A stretch of 22,130 nucleotides of DNA, taken from contig SBEK01000050.1 in the NCBI GenBank assembly GCA_009668925.1, positions 1 through 22,130 on the forward strand, written 5' to 3'. The notes beneath the pieces are model-generated. The model saw nothing but the letters and a program-made list of their open reading frames with translations, was not told the origin of the DNA and made no database searches. The position numbers were made by a program, and so were the translations under genes. Source of the stretch: Deltaproteobacteria bacterium (lineage in GTDB: Bacteria > Desulfobacterota > Syntrophia > Syntrophales > Smithellaceae). Below, piece after piece: positions 7,338 through 19,101 of the stretch (position 1 is its first letter; each line of letters begins with the position of its first letter).

Positions 7338-7865
7338 TCAGACCACCGGCAACTCCGCCTTCTTTTCTTGTTTGGCCTGTTCGTCGAGGATGATGCCGAG
7401 CGCGAACCTGGCCGCCTTGCCCACGAGCGTGGAGCAGCCTTCAGGCAATCCCGCGGCCTGGGCCGCTTTCATGTCTTCCATGTCGTAGAGATTGAAAAAA
7501 CGGCCGAACTGTTTGACCTGAATATCGTGGCAGCGGCAGGTGGAAAATTCCGCGATAAACTGCTCGTGAAATTGTTTTGAAAGCAGGAGCGCTTTAAGTT
7601 GTTTGCCCACCCGGGCCATGTCTTCCTTCTTTCTTCCGAAAAAGTAACTGATGGCCATCGTCCCGCCGGACAGAGCGCCGCAGTGGCCGTCGCCGGTGAG
7701 GCCCACCCCGTCGGCAAATCCCGTGGCGGCCCGGACGACGGCTTCATCGTCCACGCCCAGCACTTCAAGTATGGCGGAAAGTGAACACTGCGCGCAGTTG
7801 CCGCCCCGGAGTTCATAGGCTTTCGCCCTCTTGTAGACTTCGTCCAGCATTTCTTCTTTGTTCAT
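7338..7865 (-). CDS. C_GCAxxG_C_C family redox-type protein
   Basis: A 175-residue protein of the cysteine-rich C_GCAxxG_C_C family, widespread in anaerobes. Visible motif residues are GGNCAQC (21-27), the HCGALSGG block (61-68), CRC (110-112) and Cys144 in PEGCSTLVG. Members are suspected to bind a metal or Fe-S centre or act in redox reactions, but the biochemistry is not settled. I chose the ATG at 7865, which has GGAGG about 8 bases upstream; the in-frame ATG at 7889 overlaps the repeat element at 7885-7953 and has no such site. It lies between the Fe-S/FAD operon and the PPOX gene on the same strand. It is separated from the operon by a repeat, so cotranscription is uncertain. Confidence 0.85.
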   Translation of the reverse strand: MNKEEMLDEVYKRAKAYELRGGNCAQCSLSAILEVLGVDDEAVVRAATGFADGVGLTGDGHCGALSGGTMAISYFFGRKKEDMARVGKQLKALLLSKQFHEQFIAEFSTCRCHDIQVKQFGRFFNLYDMEDMKAAQAAGLPEGCSTLVGKAARFALGIILDEQAKQEKKAELPVV

Positions 7866-7884
7866 TAATTGTTTCCTCCATATT

Positions 7885-7953
7885 GTCATTCCCGCGAAGG
7901 CGGGAATCCAGTACGATCAAATGCTCCTGGATACCGGCCTACGCCGGTATGAC
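7885..7953. repeat. Dispersed palindromic repeat (GTCATTCCCGCG type)
   Basis: The element starts GTCATTCCCGCGAAGGCGGG, a hairpin of its own (CCCGC / GCGGG), and ends with a second hairpin, ACCGGCCTACGCCGGTATGAC. This two-hairpin form is a common bacterial intergenic repeat. It lies just upstream of the ribosome binding site of the 7338-7865 gene. The remaining gap to 8032 has GTCGCAATTGTGAC and a partial copy GTCGCAATTTACAC but no gene. Confidence 0.8.
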
Positions 7954-8032: not shown

Positions 8033-9208
8033 TCACTTTTGTGCTTTGGCCAGAATTTCGCCGATGCCCAGCACCTCCAGTTTATCTTCCAGGTTTTCCA
8101 TTTTCACCGCATCGGTGAGCATCTTGGCACAGTTGGGGCAGGCGACCGCAATGATGTTGGCGCCGGTTTCCAGCGCTTCGCGGACGCGGACGCGCGGGGC
8201 GCTGTCCGGGGCCGTCCCCAGAATGTCCGTAAAGAAATTTCCTCCTCCGCCGCCGCAGCAAAAAGCATCCGGGCCGTTACGGCGCATCTCTGAAAGCTGC
8301 GCCTGGGGAATGGCTTTTAGAACTTCCCGCGGCGCCTGGTAGATCTGCTGATGCCGGCCCAGGTAGCAGGGGTCATGGTAGGTGATTTTCGCCGGTGAGG
8401 CTGTGAGCTTTATTTTTTTCTTCCTAATCAGATCAGCGAGCACCTCGGTATAATGCAGCACCTTGAATTTTCCGCCCAGTGCCGGATAGTCCTTCTTGAA
8501 GGTGTTGAGCGCGTGCGGATCAAGGGTAATAATTTTTTTGATGCCTTTATCCTTGAATTGCTCAATGTTGGCCTGCGCGAGCTCCGCAAACAATCCCATT
8601 TCCCCCATGGCTCGCACATCGTTTCCGTCGCAGGTTTCTTCATTTCCCAGAATGCCGACGGATACGCCCGCGTCAACCAGCATCCGTCCCACGCTCTTGG
8701 CCATTTTCTGGCCGACTTCGTCATAGGAGCCCACCGAGCCCGCATAGAACAGGTATTCCTGGTCGGTGTAAGGCTGCAGGCCCGTGCCGCGCCCCCAGTT
8801 TCCCCGCTCGGATTGCGGCCGCTTGTAGGGATTGCCGCTTGCGGCGATGGCTTTGAAATAGTCCCGCACTCCCGGCGGGACGCGCCCGTCATTGACGAGT
8901 TGGGCCCGGGCCTCCTGGAAAATCTCCGGCAGAAAATCTTTGAATTTCGGGAAGACGCACTGCGTCTTGCAGTTGTCGCAGGTCACGCACGAAAACATGA
9001 TTTCGGCAAAGCGGGGCGTCGCTTCAATGTCGCCTTGCAGCCAGGCGCGGATGAGCCACATCCGGCCGCCGGGCGAATAGGTATCCCAGCCGAAGGCCTT
9101 GTAGGAGGGGCAGTTGAAATCGCTGTAGTCCGAGGGGAATTTGCAGTAGCCGCAGCGGAAACAGCGGTGGACGATGTCGGCGTGTTGCAGGTTGCGCAGG
9201 TAAGTCAT
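8033..9208 (-). CDS. CCG-domain iron-sulfur oxidoreductase subunit (GlcF/HdrD-like)
   Basis: A 391-residue electron-transfer subunit. The N-terminal ferredoxin-like part holds two four-cysteine sets: Cys16, 19, 22, 33 and Cys74, 77, 80, 84. The second half carries two cysteine-rich CCG-type domains, as in GlpC, GlcF and HdrB/HdrD. Seen are ETCDGND, then DPCYLGRH with FCCGGGGG, then ACPNCAKM. Such subunits take electrons from a flavoprotein to the quinone pool or a thiol or ferredoxin partner. Its ATG overlaps the stop of the FAD subunit by four bases (ATGA), so the two are translationally coupled and almost certainly form one complex. It has no transmembrane segment. Physiological acceptor is unknown. 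Confidence 0.88.
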   Translation of the reverse strand: MTYLRNLQHADIVHRCFRCGYCKFPSDYSDFNCPSYKAFGWDTYSPGGRMWLIRAWLQGDIEATPRFAEIMFSCVTCDNCKTQCVFPKFKDFLPEIFQEARAQLVNDGRVPPGVRDYFKAIAASGNPYKRPQSERGNWGRGTGLQPYTDQEYLFYAGSVGSYDEVGQKMAKSVGRMLVDAGVSVGILGNEETCDGNDVRAMGEMGLFAELAQANIEQFKDKGIKKIITLDPHALNTFKKDYPALGGKFKVLHYTEVLADLIRKKKIKLTASPAKITYHDPCYLGRHQQIYQAPREVLKAIPQAQLSEMRRNGPDAFCCGGGGGNFFTDILGTAPDSAPRVRVREALETGANIIAVACPNCAKMLTDAVKMENLEDKLEVLGIGEILAKAQK

Positions 9209-10587
9209 GAGTTCACCTCCCAGTTGCCGGGATTCATGATCCCGCAGGGATCCAGGTTTTTCCTGATCATCCCCAGGAGCTTTAGGGCATTGGGCTCCAT
9301 CTTCTCCATCACCATTTTCTGCTCCATGTAATTGGGCTTCCAGGGTACGCCGCCCATCTCCAGGGCGAACGCCGTCGCTTCATCCAGCGCCTCTTTGACC
9401 CGGGCCATCATCGCCTTGTCATTGCGGTTGAAGGCAAACGAGATGCTGAACATCATGCAGTGGCCGCCGGAAATAAGCCGGGCCGAGCTGGCGTAAAGGA
9501 CATTGTACTTTTGGGCCAGTTCGACGACTTTGGCGGCATACTGCGGAAAATGTTCGATGATCGTGATCGGCCCGGAATACTCGAAACCGCCGCCTTTGGG
9601 AACGTCCGCAAAGTCGGCGATGTTGCGGCCCGGCATCTGCAGCAGCGCTTCCTTCATATACTGGACGCTCATGAAGCCGCCGTCTTTCGAATCCATGAAT
9701 TCCTGAAGCGTGTCCCAGATCATCTTGCGTTTGAATTCGATTTCCTCTTCCGTGTCCCCTGTAAAATAAAGGGTGATATGAAAGTTGCCCAGAAACATCA
9801 GCGGCTTCGGCTGAAACCAGACGTTCACGTCTTCGAGCATTTCCAGATGCGTCAGCTTGTAGAGAATGACCGGCACGAGATCCACCCGGTCGGTGACAAA
9901 CAATTCCACTTCCCGAATTTTTTTGTTGGGGAAAAGCTTCATGCCCACCTTGGTGATGATGCCCGTGGTGCCGAGCCACCCTAAAAACAATCCCGAAAGA
10001 TCGGGGAGCGTCGGGCTCTTGGAAAACCAGTAGGGCCCGATCGAAGGCGAACCGACGAGGCACACATCACCCGTCGGCAGGACCACTTCCAGTCCTGTCA
10101 CCATGTCGGAATTGAAGCCGTATTGGTTCGTGAGCCGGCCCTGGCCGTGCAGGGCGACATTGGCGGCGATGGTGGTGGTGGGCGGCGCGTCGGGCAGGCT
10201 GTGGCGCAGTGTGGGATGTTTTTCCTGCAGGTAGCTCTTCAGCGCACCCTGCGATGTTCCGCCTTCCACCACGGCGTAGCGGGCCATGGCGTTCACTTCC
10301 AGAATTTTGTTCATCCGCTTCATGTCCAGAACGATGCCGCCTTTGAGCGGAATCACCAGCCCCGTGAGCGACATGCCGTTCCCCATCGGCACGACGGGGA
10401 TTTTTTCGCGGCAGGCGAGCCGGACGATTTTTTGCACCTCTTCGGTTGTTTTCGGCGCCACCACATAATCGGGCTGATGGGGCGTGAGCACTCCAGGGTC
10501 GCGCGAATAGAACCAGAGTTCCTCCGGGGCATTGGAAACGCCTTTTTCGCCGACAATGTCAATGAGGGATGTGAGAATGTCGCTCAT
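9205..10587 (-). CDS. FAD-linked oxidase, GlcD / lactate-glycolate oxidase type
   Basis: A 460-residue flavoprotein of the FAD_binding_4 (PCMH) superfamily. Sequence landmarks are VAPKTTEEVQKIV and PVVPMGNGMSLTG, which hold the FAD pyrophosphate, then YAVVEGGTSQGAL. PDAPPTTTIAANVALHGQG follows, with YGFNSDMVTGLEVVLPTG at the flavin site and GIMNPGNWE near the C-terminus. Such enzymes oxidise hydroxy acids (lactate, glycolate) or phenolic side chains; the PDAPP segment is somewhat like the 4-cresol dehydrogenase branch, so the substrate is open. I chose the ATG at 10587 because GGAGG lies 7 bases upstream and it overlaps the preceding stop as ATGA. It is sandwiched between two iron-sulfur genes with four-base overlaps on both sides. 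Confidence 0.88.
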   Translation of the reverse strand: MSDILTSLIDIVGEKGVSNAPEELWFYSRDPGVLTPHQPDYVVAPKTTEEVQKIVRLACREKIPVVPMGNGMSLTGLVIPLKGGIVLDMKRMNKILEVNAMARYAVVEGGTSQGALKSYLQEKHPTLRHSLPDAPPTTTIAANVALHGQGRLTNQYGFNSDMVTGLEVVLPTGDVCLVGSPSIGPYWFSKSPTLPDLSGLFLGWLGTTGIITKVGMKLFPNKKIREVELFVTDRVDLVPVILYKLTHLEMLEDVNVWFQPKPLMFLGNFHITLYFTGDTEEEIEFKRKMIWDTLQEFMDSKDGGFMSVQYMKEALLQMPGRNIADFADVPKGGGFEYSGPITIIEHFPQYAAKVVELAQKYNVLYASSARLISGGHCMMFSISFAFNRNDKAMMARVKEALDEATAFALEMGGVPWKPNYMEQKMVMEKMEPNALKLLGMIRKNLDPCGIMNPGNWEVNS

Positions 10588-11618
10588 AATGCCGCCTCCC
10601 TTCCTTTTTCGCCGATGGCCATTTTGCAAAGATCGATGATATGCACCGGTTTCAAGCCTCTCTTGGATACCTTCTCCGACAAAGACGACTGGCAGGCCGG
10701 ACAGTTGAACACGCAGTACTCGGCGCCCGCCTTAAGCATGTCGTCGATGTTGCGCTTCTGCACGTCGTCCGCCAGCTTATAGCCGGAAACGGAGCGCAGG
10801 ATTTCCGCGCAGCACAGGGCGTTTTCGTCCTGGTAGAGTCTTTTCGGGGCTTTGACGCCGATCAGTTTGAAGATTTTTTTGACGAGCGGCAGTTTGTCCG
10901 GAATGAGGCGGTTGGAGCAGGGCCGCTGGTAGGCGACGGTAATATTGAGCGGCTTGATATTACCCTTAAGCTCTTTCATTCGCTCGTAGAGATAGTCCAT
11001 GTAGTAAACGGGTTTAAAGGGCACTTCCATGCCGTAGGCTTCGGCAATCGAGGTCAGCGTTCCATAGCATTCGTCATGCATGCAGATCACTTCCCTGACG
11101 CCCAGCTGGCGGTAATTTTCAATGACGACGGGCAGGCGCTCCTTGATCACCGACATGCGGGCGAAGTGCGTGTGGACGGCGGGGCACATGAACTCCGCGC
11201 CGAACACGCCGGCTGCGGCGACATCCCTGAAGATTTCTCCCGAGCCCAGCGGACCCAGATCGGGAATGAAGCAGCACGACAGCGCCTTGTCCTTCACGTC
11301 GCCTACCAGGCATTTGCCCTGCATTGCGGTCATGTTGATCCACTGGTTGGTGATGGGGCGAGGCGCCGTGAACATGCCTTTTTCTTCGCGCTTCTCCGAA
11401 ATGAGGTAGAAAGGATGATTGCCCCGGGTGCAGTATTCCTCGCAGGCGTAGCAGGTGACGCAATCGGCAAGCACGCGGGAATCCTTGCCCTTCATGACTT
11501 TCATCATTTCCCCGTGCGCTTCCTTGTGACCGCTGAAGGTCATGTACTGGCACTTTAACAAACAGTCGGATGATGGACAGGTTGCACACACCTTTTCCCT
11601 GAATTTCAATTTGTACAT
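10584..11618 (-). CDS. CCG-domain iron-sulfur protein, first gene of the Fe-S/FAD operon
   Basis: A 344-residue iron-sulfur protein. The N-terminus has two [4Fe-4S]-type sets: Cys11, 14, 19, 23 and Cys53, 56, 59, 63. The rest carries CCG/HdrB-like cysteine-rich motifs: SCCFIPDLG, RPCSNR, ALCCAEILRS and FNCPACQSS. It shares its plan with the third operon gene but is not a close copy. With the FAD subunit it would give a three-subunit complex having two distinct Fe-S subunits, so electrons from one flavin could leave by two routes; that is inference. GGGAGG lies 7 bases before the ATG. It begins 75 bases after the end of the MerB-like selenoprotein gene on the same strand and may share its transcript. 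Confidence 0.85.
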   Translation of the reverse strand: MYKLKFREKVCATCPSSDCLLKCQYMTFSGHKEAHGEMMKVMKGKDSRVLADCVTCYACEEYCTRGNHPFYLISEKREEKGMFTAPRPITNQWINMTAMQGKCLVGDVKDKALSCCFIPDLGPLGSGEIFRDVAAAGVFGAEFMCPAVHTHFARMSVIKERLPVVIENYRQLGVREVICMHDECYGTLTSIAEAYGMEVPFKPVYYMDYLYERMKELKGNIKPLNITVAYQRPCSNRLIPDKLPLVKKIFKLIGVKAPKRLYQDENALCCAEILRSVSGYKLADDVQKRNIDDMLKAGAEYCVFNCPACQSSLSEKVSKRGLKPVHIIDLCKMAIGEKGREAAL

Positions 11619-11693: not shown

Positions 11694-12401
11694 TCATGGT
11701 TTTGTGAGCGACCAGAAGGGACCGGTTTTGCCGATGTCCGCGAGTGCGACGATCCAGTCCAAACTGTATTCGAGCATATGGGAAAAATAATCGGGATCCA
11801 GACGCCGCCGGAACATCCGGCCGGAAAAAAGGTTAAGCAGGCCGGGCAGGGAGAGTATCCCTTCTTCCGTGCCCTCTTGAAACTGCGCCCAGTTGCGAAG
11901 ATGTTCTTCCGACCGGAAGAATGTCATCGTCGATCAGGCGTAGCTCATATCCTTCATCCAGCGGGAAAAAGGAACGGCCACATAGCCGATGACTTCGGGC
12001 GGGTCGGCCTTCAAGATGACGCCGTCGCGGACTTCGATGTGGATGGGTTCACCGCAATCCAGACACGGCGTATCGATGTGCACTGTTTTGCCCGGGAAAA
12101 GCCAGCAGACCGCCAGCGATTCGAAGGCTCACTGGCCGAACCATTTTTGCCGGCCGTCAATTGAGATTCTGAAAGGGGTGGGCTGATTGTTGAAAGGGGC
12201 GAAAGAGGCGATAAGATCCGTGCCGGGTGCGAGCCACCCGGGAACCCGTTTGGCGTAAAGCTCGTGCAGGGTTTTGCGGCCTTCGTCCATGGAAACGCCC
12301 AGTTCTTTTGCTATTTCCGTATAGTGCGGGGCTTGTCCGGTTTCCACCATACGCTTTATGATAACGTGAAACGTTTTATCCAGTGTGCCTGGCTGGTCCA
12401 T
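11694..12401 (-). CDS. MerB-like organometal lyase, candidate selenoprotein with two selenocysteines
   Basis: One frame of 235 codons plus stop, interrupted by two TGA codons at 12131-12129 (residue 91) and 11936-11934 (residue 156). The product matches the alkylmercury lyase MerB, which cleaves carbon-mercury bonds. The N-terminus has a winged-helix-like part (YTEIAKELGVSMDEGRKTL). The core follows: WFGQ-U-AFESL aligns with WC96ALDTL, DTPCLDCGEPI aligns with the Cys117 strand, and YA-U-STMTFFRSEE aligns with the Cys159 segment FCCHVHFFAS. The two TGAs thus fall on both catalytic cysteines, 65 residues apart against 63 in MerB. Each is followed by a SECIS-like hairpin. The MerB aspartate (Asp99) is Glu94 here. 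AGGGG precedes the ATG at 12401. I recall a proposed selenocysteine-assisted organometal system with a MerB-like lyase named SaoL, which this may match. The substrate (organomercury or another organometal) is inferred. The alternative, a pseudogene with two stops, fits poorly. Confidence 0.88.
11904..11921 (-). promoter_or_regulatory. Bacterial SECIS element for Sec156
   Basis: In the mRNA, 19 nt after the second UGA, a four-base loop GGUC (11914-11911) is closed by a perfect seven-pair stem, UUCUUCC (11921-11915) with GGAAGAA (11910-11904). It starts with GG like the first element and lies in the usual distance range. Confidence 0.88.
12096..12122 (-). promoter_or_regulatory. Bacterial SECIS element for Sec91
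   Basis: In the mRNA, 17 nt after the first UGA, a five-base loop GGUCU (12111-12107) is closed by GCUGGC / GCUGGC (12117-12112 with 12106-12101). That is six pairs, two of them G-U. After a two-base mismatch, GAA / UUC pairs further out. The loop and spacing closely match the E. coli fdhF SECIS, where GGUCU comes about 18 nt after UGA. The element is inside the coding sequence, as bacterial SECIS elements are. Confidence 0.85.
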
Positions 12402-16592: not shown

Positions 16593-17672
16593 ATGAAGAA
16601 TATTTTTTCATCCCGAACGGGAATCATTATCGTGGGAGCCGTAATCGGCGTCGGAGCGGCGCTCTTACAGTATTTCGGAAATCCGCCCAACATGGGGATC
16701 TGCGTGGCTTGTTTCGAAAGGGATATCGCGGGCGCGCTGGGTCTGCACCGGGCGGATGTGGTTCAGTATCTGCGGCCGGAAATCATGGGGTTTGTCATCG
16801 GCGCTTTTATCGCGGCGTTTGCCGCCGGTGAGTATAAGCCGCGCGGCGGTTCTTCACCGTTGATCCGTTTCTTTCTGGGTGTCTTTGCCATGATCGGCGC
16901 GCTGGTTTTTCTGGGCTGCCCCTGGCGAACGCTGCTTCGGCTGGCCGGCGGCGACGGGAACGCCATTTTCGGCTTGTTGGGACTGGTTTTCGGGATCTTT
17001 ATCGGCGTTCAGTTTCTGAAGCGGGGCTACAGTCTGGGGCGGAGCTATACGCAGAGAAAAGCCAGCGGCTGGGTTTTCCCGGCGCTGATGGCCGGGCTTT
17101 TTCTTCTGTTGGTGTTCCAGGTGTCTTTTACGCCCGGCGGTCCGATTTTCTTCAGCGTCAAGGGTCCCGGGTCGCAGCACGCCCCGATCCTGATCAGCGC
17201 TTTTGCCGGACTGGTAATCGGCGCGCTGGCGCAGAGAAGCCGTTTTTGCACGATGGGGGCGTTTCGCGACGTCCTGATCATCCGGAATTTTCATCTGGCG
17301 AGCGGCGTGGCCGGCCTTCTGGTTTTTGCTTTTATCGCCAATCTGATTCTCGGGCAGTTCCACCCCGGTTTTGAAGGCCAGCCGATTGCGCATACGAATC
17401 AGGTCTGGAATTTTCTGGGAATGACGCTGGCGGGTCTGGCCTTTGCGCTGGCCGGCGGCTGCCCCGGGCGGCAGTTGTTCTTGTCCGGCGAAGGGGACAT
17501 GGATGCGGCGATTTTTGCCACGGGCATGATCGTGGGCGCGGCGTTGGCCCATAACTTCGCCGCGGTGTCGTCTCCTAAAGGGGTCGGCGCTTTCGGACCG
17601 GCCGCCGTGGTGGTCGGACTGGCTTTCTGCCTGATCATCGGGTTTACTGAGCGGGACAAAATAAATGCTTGA
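16593..17672 (+). CDS. yedE: YedE-type selenium/sulfur transporter
   Basis: A 359-residue polytopic membrane protein of the YedE/YeeE family. Many hydrophobic segments alternate with short loops. The conserved Cys motifs are visible: MGICVACFERDIAGALG near residue 35, FLGCPWRTLLRLAGGDGNA, RSRFCTMGAFRDVL and AGGCPGRQLFLSGEGD. The family is the putative importer of selenium (or thiosulfate-type sulfur), and the type next to a TusA-like protein is associated with selenium use in comparative genomics. The start has GGGGGTG 5 bases from the ATG. It is the first of four rightward genes, 21 bases before the TusA-like start, and divergent from DUF134. Confidence 0.88.
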   Translation: MKNIFSSRTGIIIVGAVIGVGAALLQYFGNPPNMGICVACFERDIAGALGLHRADVVQYLRPEIMGFVIGAFIAAFAAGEYKPRGGSSPLIRFFLGVFAMIGALVFLGCPWRTLLRLAGGDGNAIFGLLGLVFGIFIGVQFLKRGYSLGRSYTQRKASGWVFPALMAGLFLLLVFQVSFTPGGPIFFSVKGPGSQHAPILISAFAGLVIGALAQRSRFCTMGAFRDVLIIRNFHLASGVAGLLVFAFIANLILGQFHPGFEGQPIAHTNQVWNFLGMTLAGLAFALAGGCPGRQLFLSGEGDMDAAIFATGMIVGAALAHNFAAVSSPKGVGAFGPAAVVVGLAFCLIIGFTERDKINA

Positions 17673-17693
17673 TAAAGTAAATGGAGGATGACA

Positions 17694-17909
17694 ATGAGTG
17701 CAAAGCGAATTGACGCCAGAGGGTTATCCTGCCCGCAGCCGGTGGTCCTGACGGACCGGGCGATTGCGGCCGGCGACACCGATCTGGAAATTCTGGTGGA
17801 CAATGAAACGGCGCGGGAGAATGTCATGCGCCTGGCCGCGAAAAGAGGGTTTAAAGCGGACACGCGGTCCGAAGGCGAGGATATTCTCATTCTGGCCGCG
17901 AAATCGTAA
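17694..17909 (+). CDS. TusA-like sulfur/selenium carrier protein
   Basis: A 71-residue protein with the single TusA (SirA) fold. The start MSAKRIDARGLSCPQPVVLT contains the CPxP active site with Cys13, which carries persulfide or perselenide in this family. Members adjacent to yedE are called YedF-like; full-length YedF adds a DsrE/F-like second domain, which is absent here. Two ATGs occur in the start region; the second (17694) has GGAGG 6 bases upstream, the first has no spacing. It lies between yedE and the cysteine desulfurase-like gene. Confidence 0.87.
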   Translation: MSAKRIDARGLSCPQPVVLTDRAIAAGDTDLEILVDNETARENVMRLAAKRGFKADTRSEGEDILILAAKS

Positions 17910-17922
17910 AGCGAAATAGGGA

Positions 17923-19101
17923 ATGATGGAAACACTCTATCTGGATAACGCCGCCACGACGTTTCCCAAACCGGAAGCGATGCTGGCGGCCATGATTCGT
18001 TATCAGCAGGATGTCGGCGCCTCTCCGGGGCGGTCGGGCCACGGGCTTTCCATTGATGCGGGCCGGACCGTTCTTGAGGCGCGCGAAGCGCTGGCCCGTC
18101 TGTTCAATATTGAAGATCCCCTCCGCATCGCGTTCACCCGAAACGTGACGGAAGCCCTCAACATCGCTTTGCTCGGCCTGCTTAAAGAAGGCGATCATGT
18201 CGTGACCACGAGCATGGAGCATAATTCGGTCATGCGGCCGCTGCGCTTTCTCCAGTCGCACGGCGTGGCGGTGACGGTGATTCCCTGTTCGCCCCGGGGG
18301 GAGCTTGATCCCGGCGACATTCGGAAGGCTTTACAAAGGAACACCAGGCTGGTCGTGCTGACACACGCCTCCAATGTGACCGGAACCATCCTGCCGGTTC
18401 TCGAAGCCGGCAACGTTCTGCGGGACCGGGAAAATGTTTTGCTGTGTGTGGATGCCGCCCAGACCGCGGGCGCATTGCCCATAGATGTGACGAGCATGCG
18501 GATTGATCTGCTGGCCTTTACCGGCCACAAATCTCTCTACGGCCCTCAAGGCACGGGAGGATTGTATATTCGCAAGGGCATCGATCGGGACATCGCCCCT
18601 CTGATGAGAGGCGGGACGGGCAGCCGCTCGGAATTTGAAGAACAGCCGGATTTCATGCCGGACAAGTACGAAAGCGGCACGCCCAATGTTATCGGACTTG
18701 CGGGACTCGGCGCGTCCGCGGCCTTCATTCTGGAGCGGACCATCGCCGCGATCCGGGCAAAAGAAGAACGGCTGACCGCTCGCTTTCTGGACCGGTTGAA
18801 AGCCATGCGGGATCGCGTAACGATCTACGGCCCGCAGGATGCGGCACGGCAAACCGCCGTGGTTTCCTTTAACGTAAAGAACGTTACACCATCGGATGCC
18901 GCTCTCTATTTTGAAGAAAAATGGGGCATTCTGTGCCGGCCCGGCCTGCATTGCGCACCGTCGGCCCACAAAACACTCGGAACCTTTCCACAGGGTACGG
19001 TGCGCTTCAGTTTCGGAGTGTTCAATGCGGAAAAGGACATGGACACGGCGGCCGATGCCGTGGAAGATTTGGCGAAGAAGGGAAACGCTTTTCACTCATG
19101 A
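17923..19101 (+). CDS. Cysteine desulfurase family protein (EF2568-type, PLP-dependent)
   Basis: A 392-residue class V aminotransferase-fold PLP enzyme. The start is LYLDNAATTFPKP, the PLP lysine is Lys203 in FTGHKSLYGPQGTGG, and the catalytic cysteine is Cys344 in CRPGLHCAPSAHKTLG (Cys338 nearby). It releases sulfur, or selenium, from cysteine or selenocysteine to a carrier. The whole pattern fits the EF2568-type family, which often lies beside selenium genes rather than the iscS branch. ATG codons at 17923 and 17926 are both possible; AGGGA is very close. Stop and next start overlap as ATGA, so it is coupled to the DUF3343 gene. Confidence 0.87.
   Translation: MMETLYLDNAATTFPKPEAMLAAMIRYQQDVGASPGRSGHGLSIDAGRTVLEAREALARLFNIEDPLRIAFTRNVTEALNIALLGLLKEGDHVVTTSMEHNSVMRPLRFLQSHGVAVTVIPCSPRGELDPGDIRKALQRNTRLVVLTHASNVTGTILPVLEAGNVLRDRENVLLCVDAAQTAGALPIDVTSMRIDLLAFTGHKSLYGPQGTGGLYIRKGIDRDIAPLMRGGTGSRSEFEEQPDFMPDKYESGTPNVIGLAGLGASAAFILERTIAAIRAKEERLTARFLDRLKAMRDRVTIYGPQDAARQTAVVSFNVKNVTPSDAALYFEEKWGILCRPGLHCAPSAHKTLGTFPQGTVRFSFGVFNAEKDMDTAADAVEDLAKKGNAFHS

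Follow-up and report, generated by a model that had tools for sequence, protein, structure and literature searches.

Does a MerB-like reading frame split by two in-frame TGA codons represent a decayed gene, or could it encode a selenoprotein in which both catalytic cysteines of an organomercurial lyase are replaced by selenocysteine (Sec, U)? The question is raised by a gene on the reverse strand of a 22,130-nucleotide stretch of contig SBEK01000050.1 from a member of the Smithellaceae (this whole stretch is hereafter the window; Table 1). The frame is broken at two stops under the standard code and is unbroken when TGA is read as U. The resulting protein matches the Pfam MerB family (PF03243) with an E-value of 1.7e-22 and 80.2 bits, against a gathering cut-off of 27, and phmmer alignments to 5c17 (MerB2) and 3f2g (MerB C160S) place residue 91 on the first catalytic cysteine and residue 156 on the second. 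A preliminary description of the sequence had assigned the two TGA codons of a continuous MerB-like frame to MerB Cys96 and Cys159, 65 residues apart, and our alignments and spacing agree with it. It had also read a DTPCLDCG segment as the counterpart of the MerB Cys117 strand; Cys113 occupies the Cys117 column, with the correction that the CLDC motif holds a second cysteine, Cys116. The MerB Asp99 column is filled by Glu94, an alanine precedes residue 156 (AU motif), and a MerB fold is predicted for the protein. The sequence evidence supports the view that this is a real MerB-family selenoprotein gene, with putative Sec codons at both catalytic Cys positions.

Six peptide patterns, searched against species genomes, matched 23 loci, and 22 of these were usable once a fragment (L023) was excluded. 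Column 156 is TGA in all 22 loci; column 91 is TGA in 20 and Cys in the remaining two (L021 and L022). Of the two predicted selenium sites, that in the Cys159 column is thus the more constant, and that in the Cys96 column switches. The genomes, mostly metagenome-assembled, belong to Syntrophaceae, Smithella, Desulfobacterales, Poribacteria, Abyssobacteria, Nitrospiraceae and one alphaproteobacterium, so that the double-TGA pattern of the 20 relatives spans several phyla, and protein conservation is intact on either side of the TGA codons. Such constancy at both columns, with Cys in the only two exceptions, argues that the window gene is not a product of decay.

At the protein level we obtained 253 matches, and the residue counts cover the 120 that are listed. 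Among these, 67 have Cys at position 91 and end at the would-be column 156, and 50 have W at both columns; the rest are a Cys/Cys protein (P0036), one with Ser at 91 and then an end, and one with W followed by P. Truncation at column 156 and W/W readings together account for 117 of the 120. Judged on the protein entries alone, the W/W forms most likely come from gene calling with code 4. A separate search gave a second Cys/Cys protein, P0124. The homologues with C or U at both positions to which the preliminary description had looked are therefore present as C/C (P0036, P0124), C/U (L021, L022) and U/U (20 of the 22 loci).

We then drew 297 genomes evenly across the phylum to which the genome with locus L001 belongs and sought the Pfam MerB domain in them. 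Above the cut-off there were 42 MerB-family places in 34 genomes: 25 with two TGA, three with one TGA, 13 without a stop and one with a single TAA. In-frame stops across these places amount to 53 TGA against one TAA and no TAG, which bears out the earlier claim that the stops are not random. Each of the 25 two-TGA places was read individually, and all have U at both catalytic columns. A draw from the order (149 genomes) gave 33 places, 28 with two TGA, two with one and three with none, the catalytic columns being read here only in loci already fetched. The predicted double-Sec MerB-family variant is widespread. The sole non-TGA stop lies in L037 (G244:C180), a MerB-family frame broken by TAA which may be decayed or split.

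Both UGA codons are followed by a hairpin resembling a bacterial selenocysteine insertion sequence (SECIS; Table 1). In PMC13188914, the limits for such elements are a loop of 3-9 nucleotides, an upper stem of 4-16 pairs, a G within the first two loop places, a spacing of 16-37 nucleotides and a minimum free energy (MFE) of at most -7.5, and both hairpins fall within them. The strongest evidence for these candidate elements is a codon lock. A degenerate amino acid is common to at least 85% of 21 U/U genes in 98 columns, and in only eight of these (S95, L96, A97, V98, F161, F162, R163 and S164) is one codon used without exception; all eight lie within the hairpins. The mean share of the commonest codon is 0.99 in the ten hairpin columns versus 0.57 elsewhere, and none of 100000 random draws reached 0.99. 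The stems also covary: at site 91, columns 15-31 change from G-C to C-G and 10-36 from G-C to A-U with 100% of cells paired, and at site 156, 16-33 change from U-A to C-G and 21-28 from C-G to U-A with 97.3% paired. In a wider set, all six upper pairs of site 91 are kept in 39 of 39 genes. At site 156, where the set holds 47 sequences and includes a distant second branch described below, the seven pairs are kept in 43, 45, 47, 47, 47, 47 and 47; further compensatory exchanges occur and the GGUC loop is found in 46. In the even draw, the codons GCG GTC follow site 91 in 14 of 18 genes and GGTC follows site 156 in 18 of 18, counts in which L036 is the gene of L001 and from which L050 was missed by the pattern. 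Of the two Cys-91 loci, L021 has lost the site-91 loop sequence and L022 has retained it.

The machinery for Sec insertion is found in most relatives, with selB above the cut-off in 20 of the 22 genomes and tRNA-Sec in 17. Both are present in the alphaproteobacterium (G021), where they score higher than in any other of the 22 genomes. The homologue series, the SECIS-like hairpins and the relatives' selB and tRNA-Sec all support, at the sequence level, the central proposal of the preliminary description that Sec replaces both catalytic cysteines of a MerB-like protein. Separately, contig C298 of the L022 genome (G022) bears two strong tRNA-Sec genes, and selB passes the cut-off twice in this genome (C358 and C181), which could mean either a second Sec set or a mixed bin.

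The closest points of comparison are MerB itself and SaoL. The window protein is like MerB (PF03243; 3f0o, 3f2f and the MerB2 structure 5c17) in family, predicted fold, and the catalytic and Cys117 columns. It differs in having Sec codons for both catalytic Cys, Glu for Asp99, the extra Cys116 and a longer C-terminus, in scoring far under the curated cut-offs and in that no mer operon is named around it. Cys96, Asp99 and Cys159, which we take to be the canonical MerB catalytic triad, correspond in the window protein to a Sec codon, Glu and a Sec codon; the triad as such is absent.

SaoL (NF040728) is described in the available part of PMC13188914 as a MerB-like selenoprotein of the selenocysteine-assisted organometallic (SAO) system; there, MerB is named just in the SaoL row, with one Sec, and a different mercury-related entry, a putative mercuric reductase metal-binding protein, has two Sec. 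Two of the genes that we collected pass the SaoL cut-off (L028, 174.7; L032, 148.2). Like the window protein, they have the MerB domain and a Sec in the Cys159 column, one of its two Sec positions, and they differ from it in carrying Cys at the Cys96 column, a single Sec in a CU rather than an AU motif, and a place in a separate clade. The last residue of the SaoL model directly precedes the Sec in both (198 before U199 in L028, 147 before U148 in L032), so that the NCBIfam model seems to have been cut short at the UGA. Within the searched passages of PMC13188914, PMC2398784, PMC9312934, PMC12013277 and PMC8318568, we found no MerB-family protein with two Sec. MerB-like selenoproteins are thus known already, and the new feature, as predicted from sequence, is that Sec codons occupy both of the positions that grip the metal. 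A further MerB-like gene, L031 (U198; 54.3 of 140 for SaoL), carries a single UGA, in the Cys159 column and not preceded by Cys, and is perhaps another single-Sec MerB form.

The double-TGA genes fall into two branches. Of the 25 two-TGA places of the even draw, 19 belong to the window family, with a GQU motif and mostly Glu at the Asp99 column, and six (L056-L061, L061 being the gene of L054) to a distant second branch. Over 143 aligned rows, the Asp99 column holds 136 E, six D and one K. The second branch has U at both catalytic columns and a GGUC hairpin after the second UGA, as does the window family. It differs in its U-A-(V/A/I)-D motif, which retains the Asp of the Asp99 column, in FU followed by FF, in a spacing of 74-75 residues versus 65-66, in its first hairpin and in its position in the tree. 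There, the window family (34 rows, support 100/100) and the second branch (six rows, 100/99) are placed apart, and SaoL stands near the second branch with weak support (64/33). An approximately unbiased test did not reject a single clade for both double-Sec groups (p 0.0875), and the deep branches are long; two independent origins are no more than a possibility. The Cys-only L030, L034 and L048 lie within the deep clade of the window family (98/96) and share its Glu at the Asp99 column, unlike it in having Cys at both columns, no TGA and frames of about 290-310 residues. As a side observation, the start of the frame L070, 3' of the second-branch double-UGA gene in G111, resembles by eye a MerR-type regulator.

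What would such a site do? In MerB, the organomercurial binds Cys96 and Cys159, Asp99 and Cys96 help the proton to reach the carbon, and the cysteines retain the Hg(II) until it is passed to thiols. For the window protein, SelB and Sec-tRNA would insert Sec at both UGAs, and the organomercurial, most likely methylmercury, would be bound by Sec91 and Sec156. The leaving carbon would be protonated, likely via Glu94 in place of Asp99, and Hg(II) would pass to cell thiols, with Cys113 and Cys116 as a possible relay. Two Sec residues would keep the site ionised at neutral pH and tighten its hold on mercury. Turnover would then depend on strong acceptors, a part that could be played by the CLDC motif or by reducing neighbours. 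In the window's clade, reduction of the site could be maintained by the flavin and CCG/Fe-S (iron-sulfur) proteins encoded downstream. Such redox neighbours are absent from distant relatives, and this last step is therefore a guess. We consider it more probable than not that the protein is a double-selenocysteine MerB-fold lyase that grips and cleaves carbon-mercury bonds between two selenolates, an activity suggested by its family, predicted fold and residues.

A lead on the substrate comes from the mercury-methylation gene hgcA, which scored above the cut-off in 83 of the 297 genomes of the phylum draw, in 72 of the 149 of the order draw and in 12 of 21 other genomes that contain relatives. 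In the phylum draw it is present in 10 of 19 two-TGA genomes versus 73 of 278 others (p 0.018), and in the order draw in 20 of 27 versus 52 of 122 (p 0.005), or 14 of 19 versus 52 of 122 (p 0.014) when the genomes found by the query itself are removed. Since nifH was too rare to serve as a control (8 of 149 above the cut-off), dsrA was used; it is present in 9 of 27 two-TGA genomes versus 29 of 122 others (p 0.33). The co-occurrence with hgcA hints at methylmercury as the substrate.

Other explanations of the two TGA codons can be weighed against these data. Two in-frame stops in the standard code are what a pseudogene or sequencing error would give by chance, yet the same two codons recur in 20 of the 22 relatives, the stops of the even draw are TGA almost without exception, and conservation continues through both. 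An altered code reading UGA as tryptophan or another residue would fit the 50 W/W proteins; against it stand the Cys found at the same columns in other relatives, the 67 listed proteins called as ending at column 156, the codon lock and covarying hairpins after both UGAs, the selB and tRNA-Sec genes of most relatives, and the window gene's own terminator, which is TGA. We dropped decay, error and a Trp code alike as extremely improbable, given the conserved TGA columns, the Cys homologues, the codon lock and the TGA excess. That the gene might be the SaoL of a SAO system, as the preliminary description had suggested, is only slightly less improbable: the MerB domain and the Cys159-column Sec are common to L028 and L032, but the window protein scores 37.8 bits for SaoL against a cut-off of 140, the genes that pass have a single Sec, with Cys in the Cys96 column, and they form a separate clade. 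No SAO gene was named among the window genes scanned by Pfam or NCBIfam. We thus rejected SaoL membership.

A more serious rival, which we hold to be possible and yet distinctly the lesser prospect, is that this double-Sec MerB-fold selenoprotein does not act on organomercurials and serves another organometal or metalloid substrate, metal binding, or redox chemistry with its flavin and Fe-S neighbours. The CCG, flavin and C_GCAxxG redox proteins that adjoin the gene in the window's clade favour such a role, and several observations that tell against a mercury lyase are in keeping with it: Asp99 is replaced by Glu, the protein is distant from curated MerB (42.2 of 193 and 37.9 of 200 for the NCBIfam MerB models), and no mer gene was named by Pfam or NCBIfam among the 13 other window genes scanned, the remaining frames being judged by eye only. 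The hgcA statistics ignore kinship, genome size and repeated testing, the phylum and order draws overlap, and without G001 the phylum comparison becomes 9 of 18 versus 73 of 278 (p 0.053). As regards Sec itself, nearly every genome of the phylum draw has selB (263 of 297), so that its presence is necessary rather than telling and its co-occurrence does not discriminate; G031 and G135, both two-TGA genomes, give no more than weak selB matches. The hairpin energies are only modestly below those of synonymous shuffles (mean z -0.51 at site 91 and -1.49 at site 156), folding energy by itself being a weak sign, and an Rfam search gave no SECIS match. Against a non-organomercurial role stand the retention of both metal-gripping columns and the Cys117 column, the distant relatives that have no redox neighbours, and the higher frequency of hgcA in two-TGA genomes.

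If the lyase reading is extended, one arrives at a stand-alone, methylmercury-cleaving pincer enzyme with two selenolates in anaerobes, among them many with hgcA. It would occur on two MerB branches far from each other, of which one has Glu and the other Asp, with selenium fixed on the Cys159 side and Sec and Cys switching on the Cys96 side. We put this fuller picture forward tentatively, as an idea with perhaps one chance in three. Such an enzyme would have escaped notice, since gene callers end at the two UGAs or misread them, and it would represent an overlooked anoxic route of methylmercury breakdown, an open question for which surveys target the Cys form of merB. If active, it would provide both metal ligands of one site as Sec, and the natural C/C, C/U and U/U forms could be compared to show what selenium contributes to a metal-carbon lyase.

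Table 1. Coordinates of the MerB-family gene, its UGA codons and hairpins, and neighbouring genes in the window
Feature	Position	Strand	Remarks
MerB-family gene, TGA read as Sec	11694..12401	(-)	235 residues, U91 and U156; terminal TGA 11694-11696
UGA codon 91 (MerB Cys96 column)	12129..12131	(-)	TGA in 20/22 loci, Cys in 2
UGA codon 156 (MerB Cys159 column)	11934..11936	(-)	TGA in 22/22 loci
SECIS-like hairpin 1	12096..12122	(-)	Upper stem of six pairs, loop GGUCU, 17 nucleotides past UGA 91, MFE -16.9
SECIS-like hairpin 2	11904..11921	(-)	Seven pairs, loop GGUC, 19 nucleotides past UGA 156, MFE -13.9
CCG-domain (HdrB-like) protein	10584..11618	(-)	75 bases downstream of the MerB-family gene, same strand
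GlcD-like flavin adenine dinucleotide (FAD) protein	9205..10587	(-)	In 7/22 loci
GlcF/HdrD-like Fe-S protein, two CCG domains	8033..9208	(-)	In 5/22 loci
C_GCAxxG_C_C family redox protein	7338..7889	(-)	In 7/22 loci, two weakly (28 and 32 percent identity)
Selenium-metabolism cluster	16593-19101	(+)	YedE transporter, YedF-like and SclA-like genes

The MerB-family gene likely shares a transcript with the CCG-domain gene that follows it. A CCG/HdrB-like gene lies downstream in 8 of the 22 loci (L001-L004 and L006-L009), a count, like those of the GlcD-like and GlcF/HdrD-like genes in Table 1, in which several contigs end before the downstream genes. The downstream genes are common only to loci near the window's clade, and none of them is present in L010-L022. 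Nor did 20 further places reveal a common operon: in these and the distant loci the most shared neighbour is oxidoreductase-like by eye (near L010, L014, L016, L018 and L078), and as it stands at differing places we deduced no operon from it. C_GCAxxG_C_C proteins occur near the gene in L001, L002, L005 and L007, of the Syntrophaceae clade, some loci having a second, 208-residue form just downstream. Elsewhere in the window, the YedE selenium transporter gene scores 504 bits against a cut-off of 200. Beside it are a YedF-like gene (58 of 110, under the curated cut-off) and a cysteine desulfurase close to SclA, which at 395.7 of 525 is under that cut-off and passes TIGR01977.
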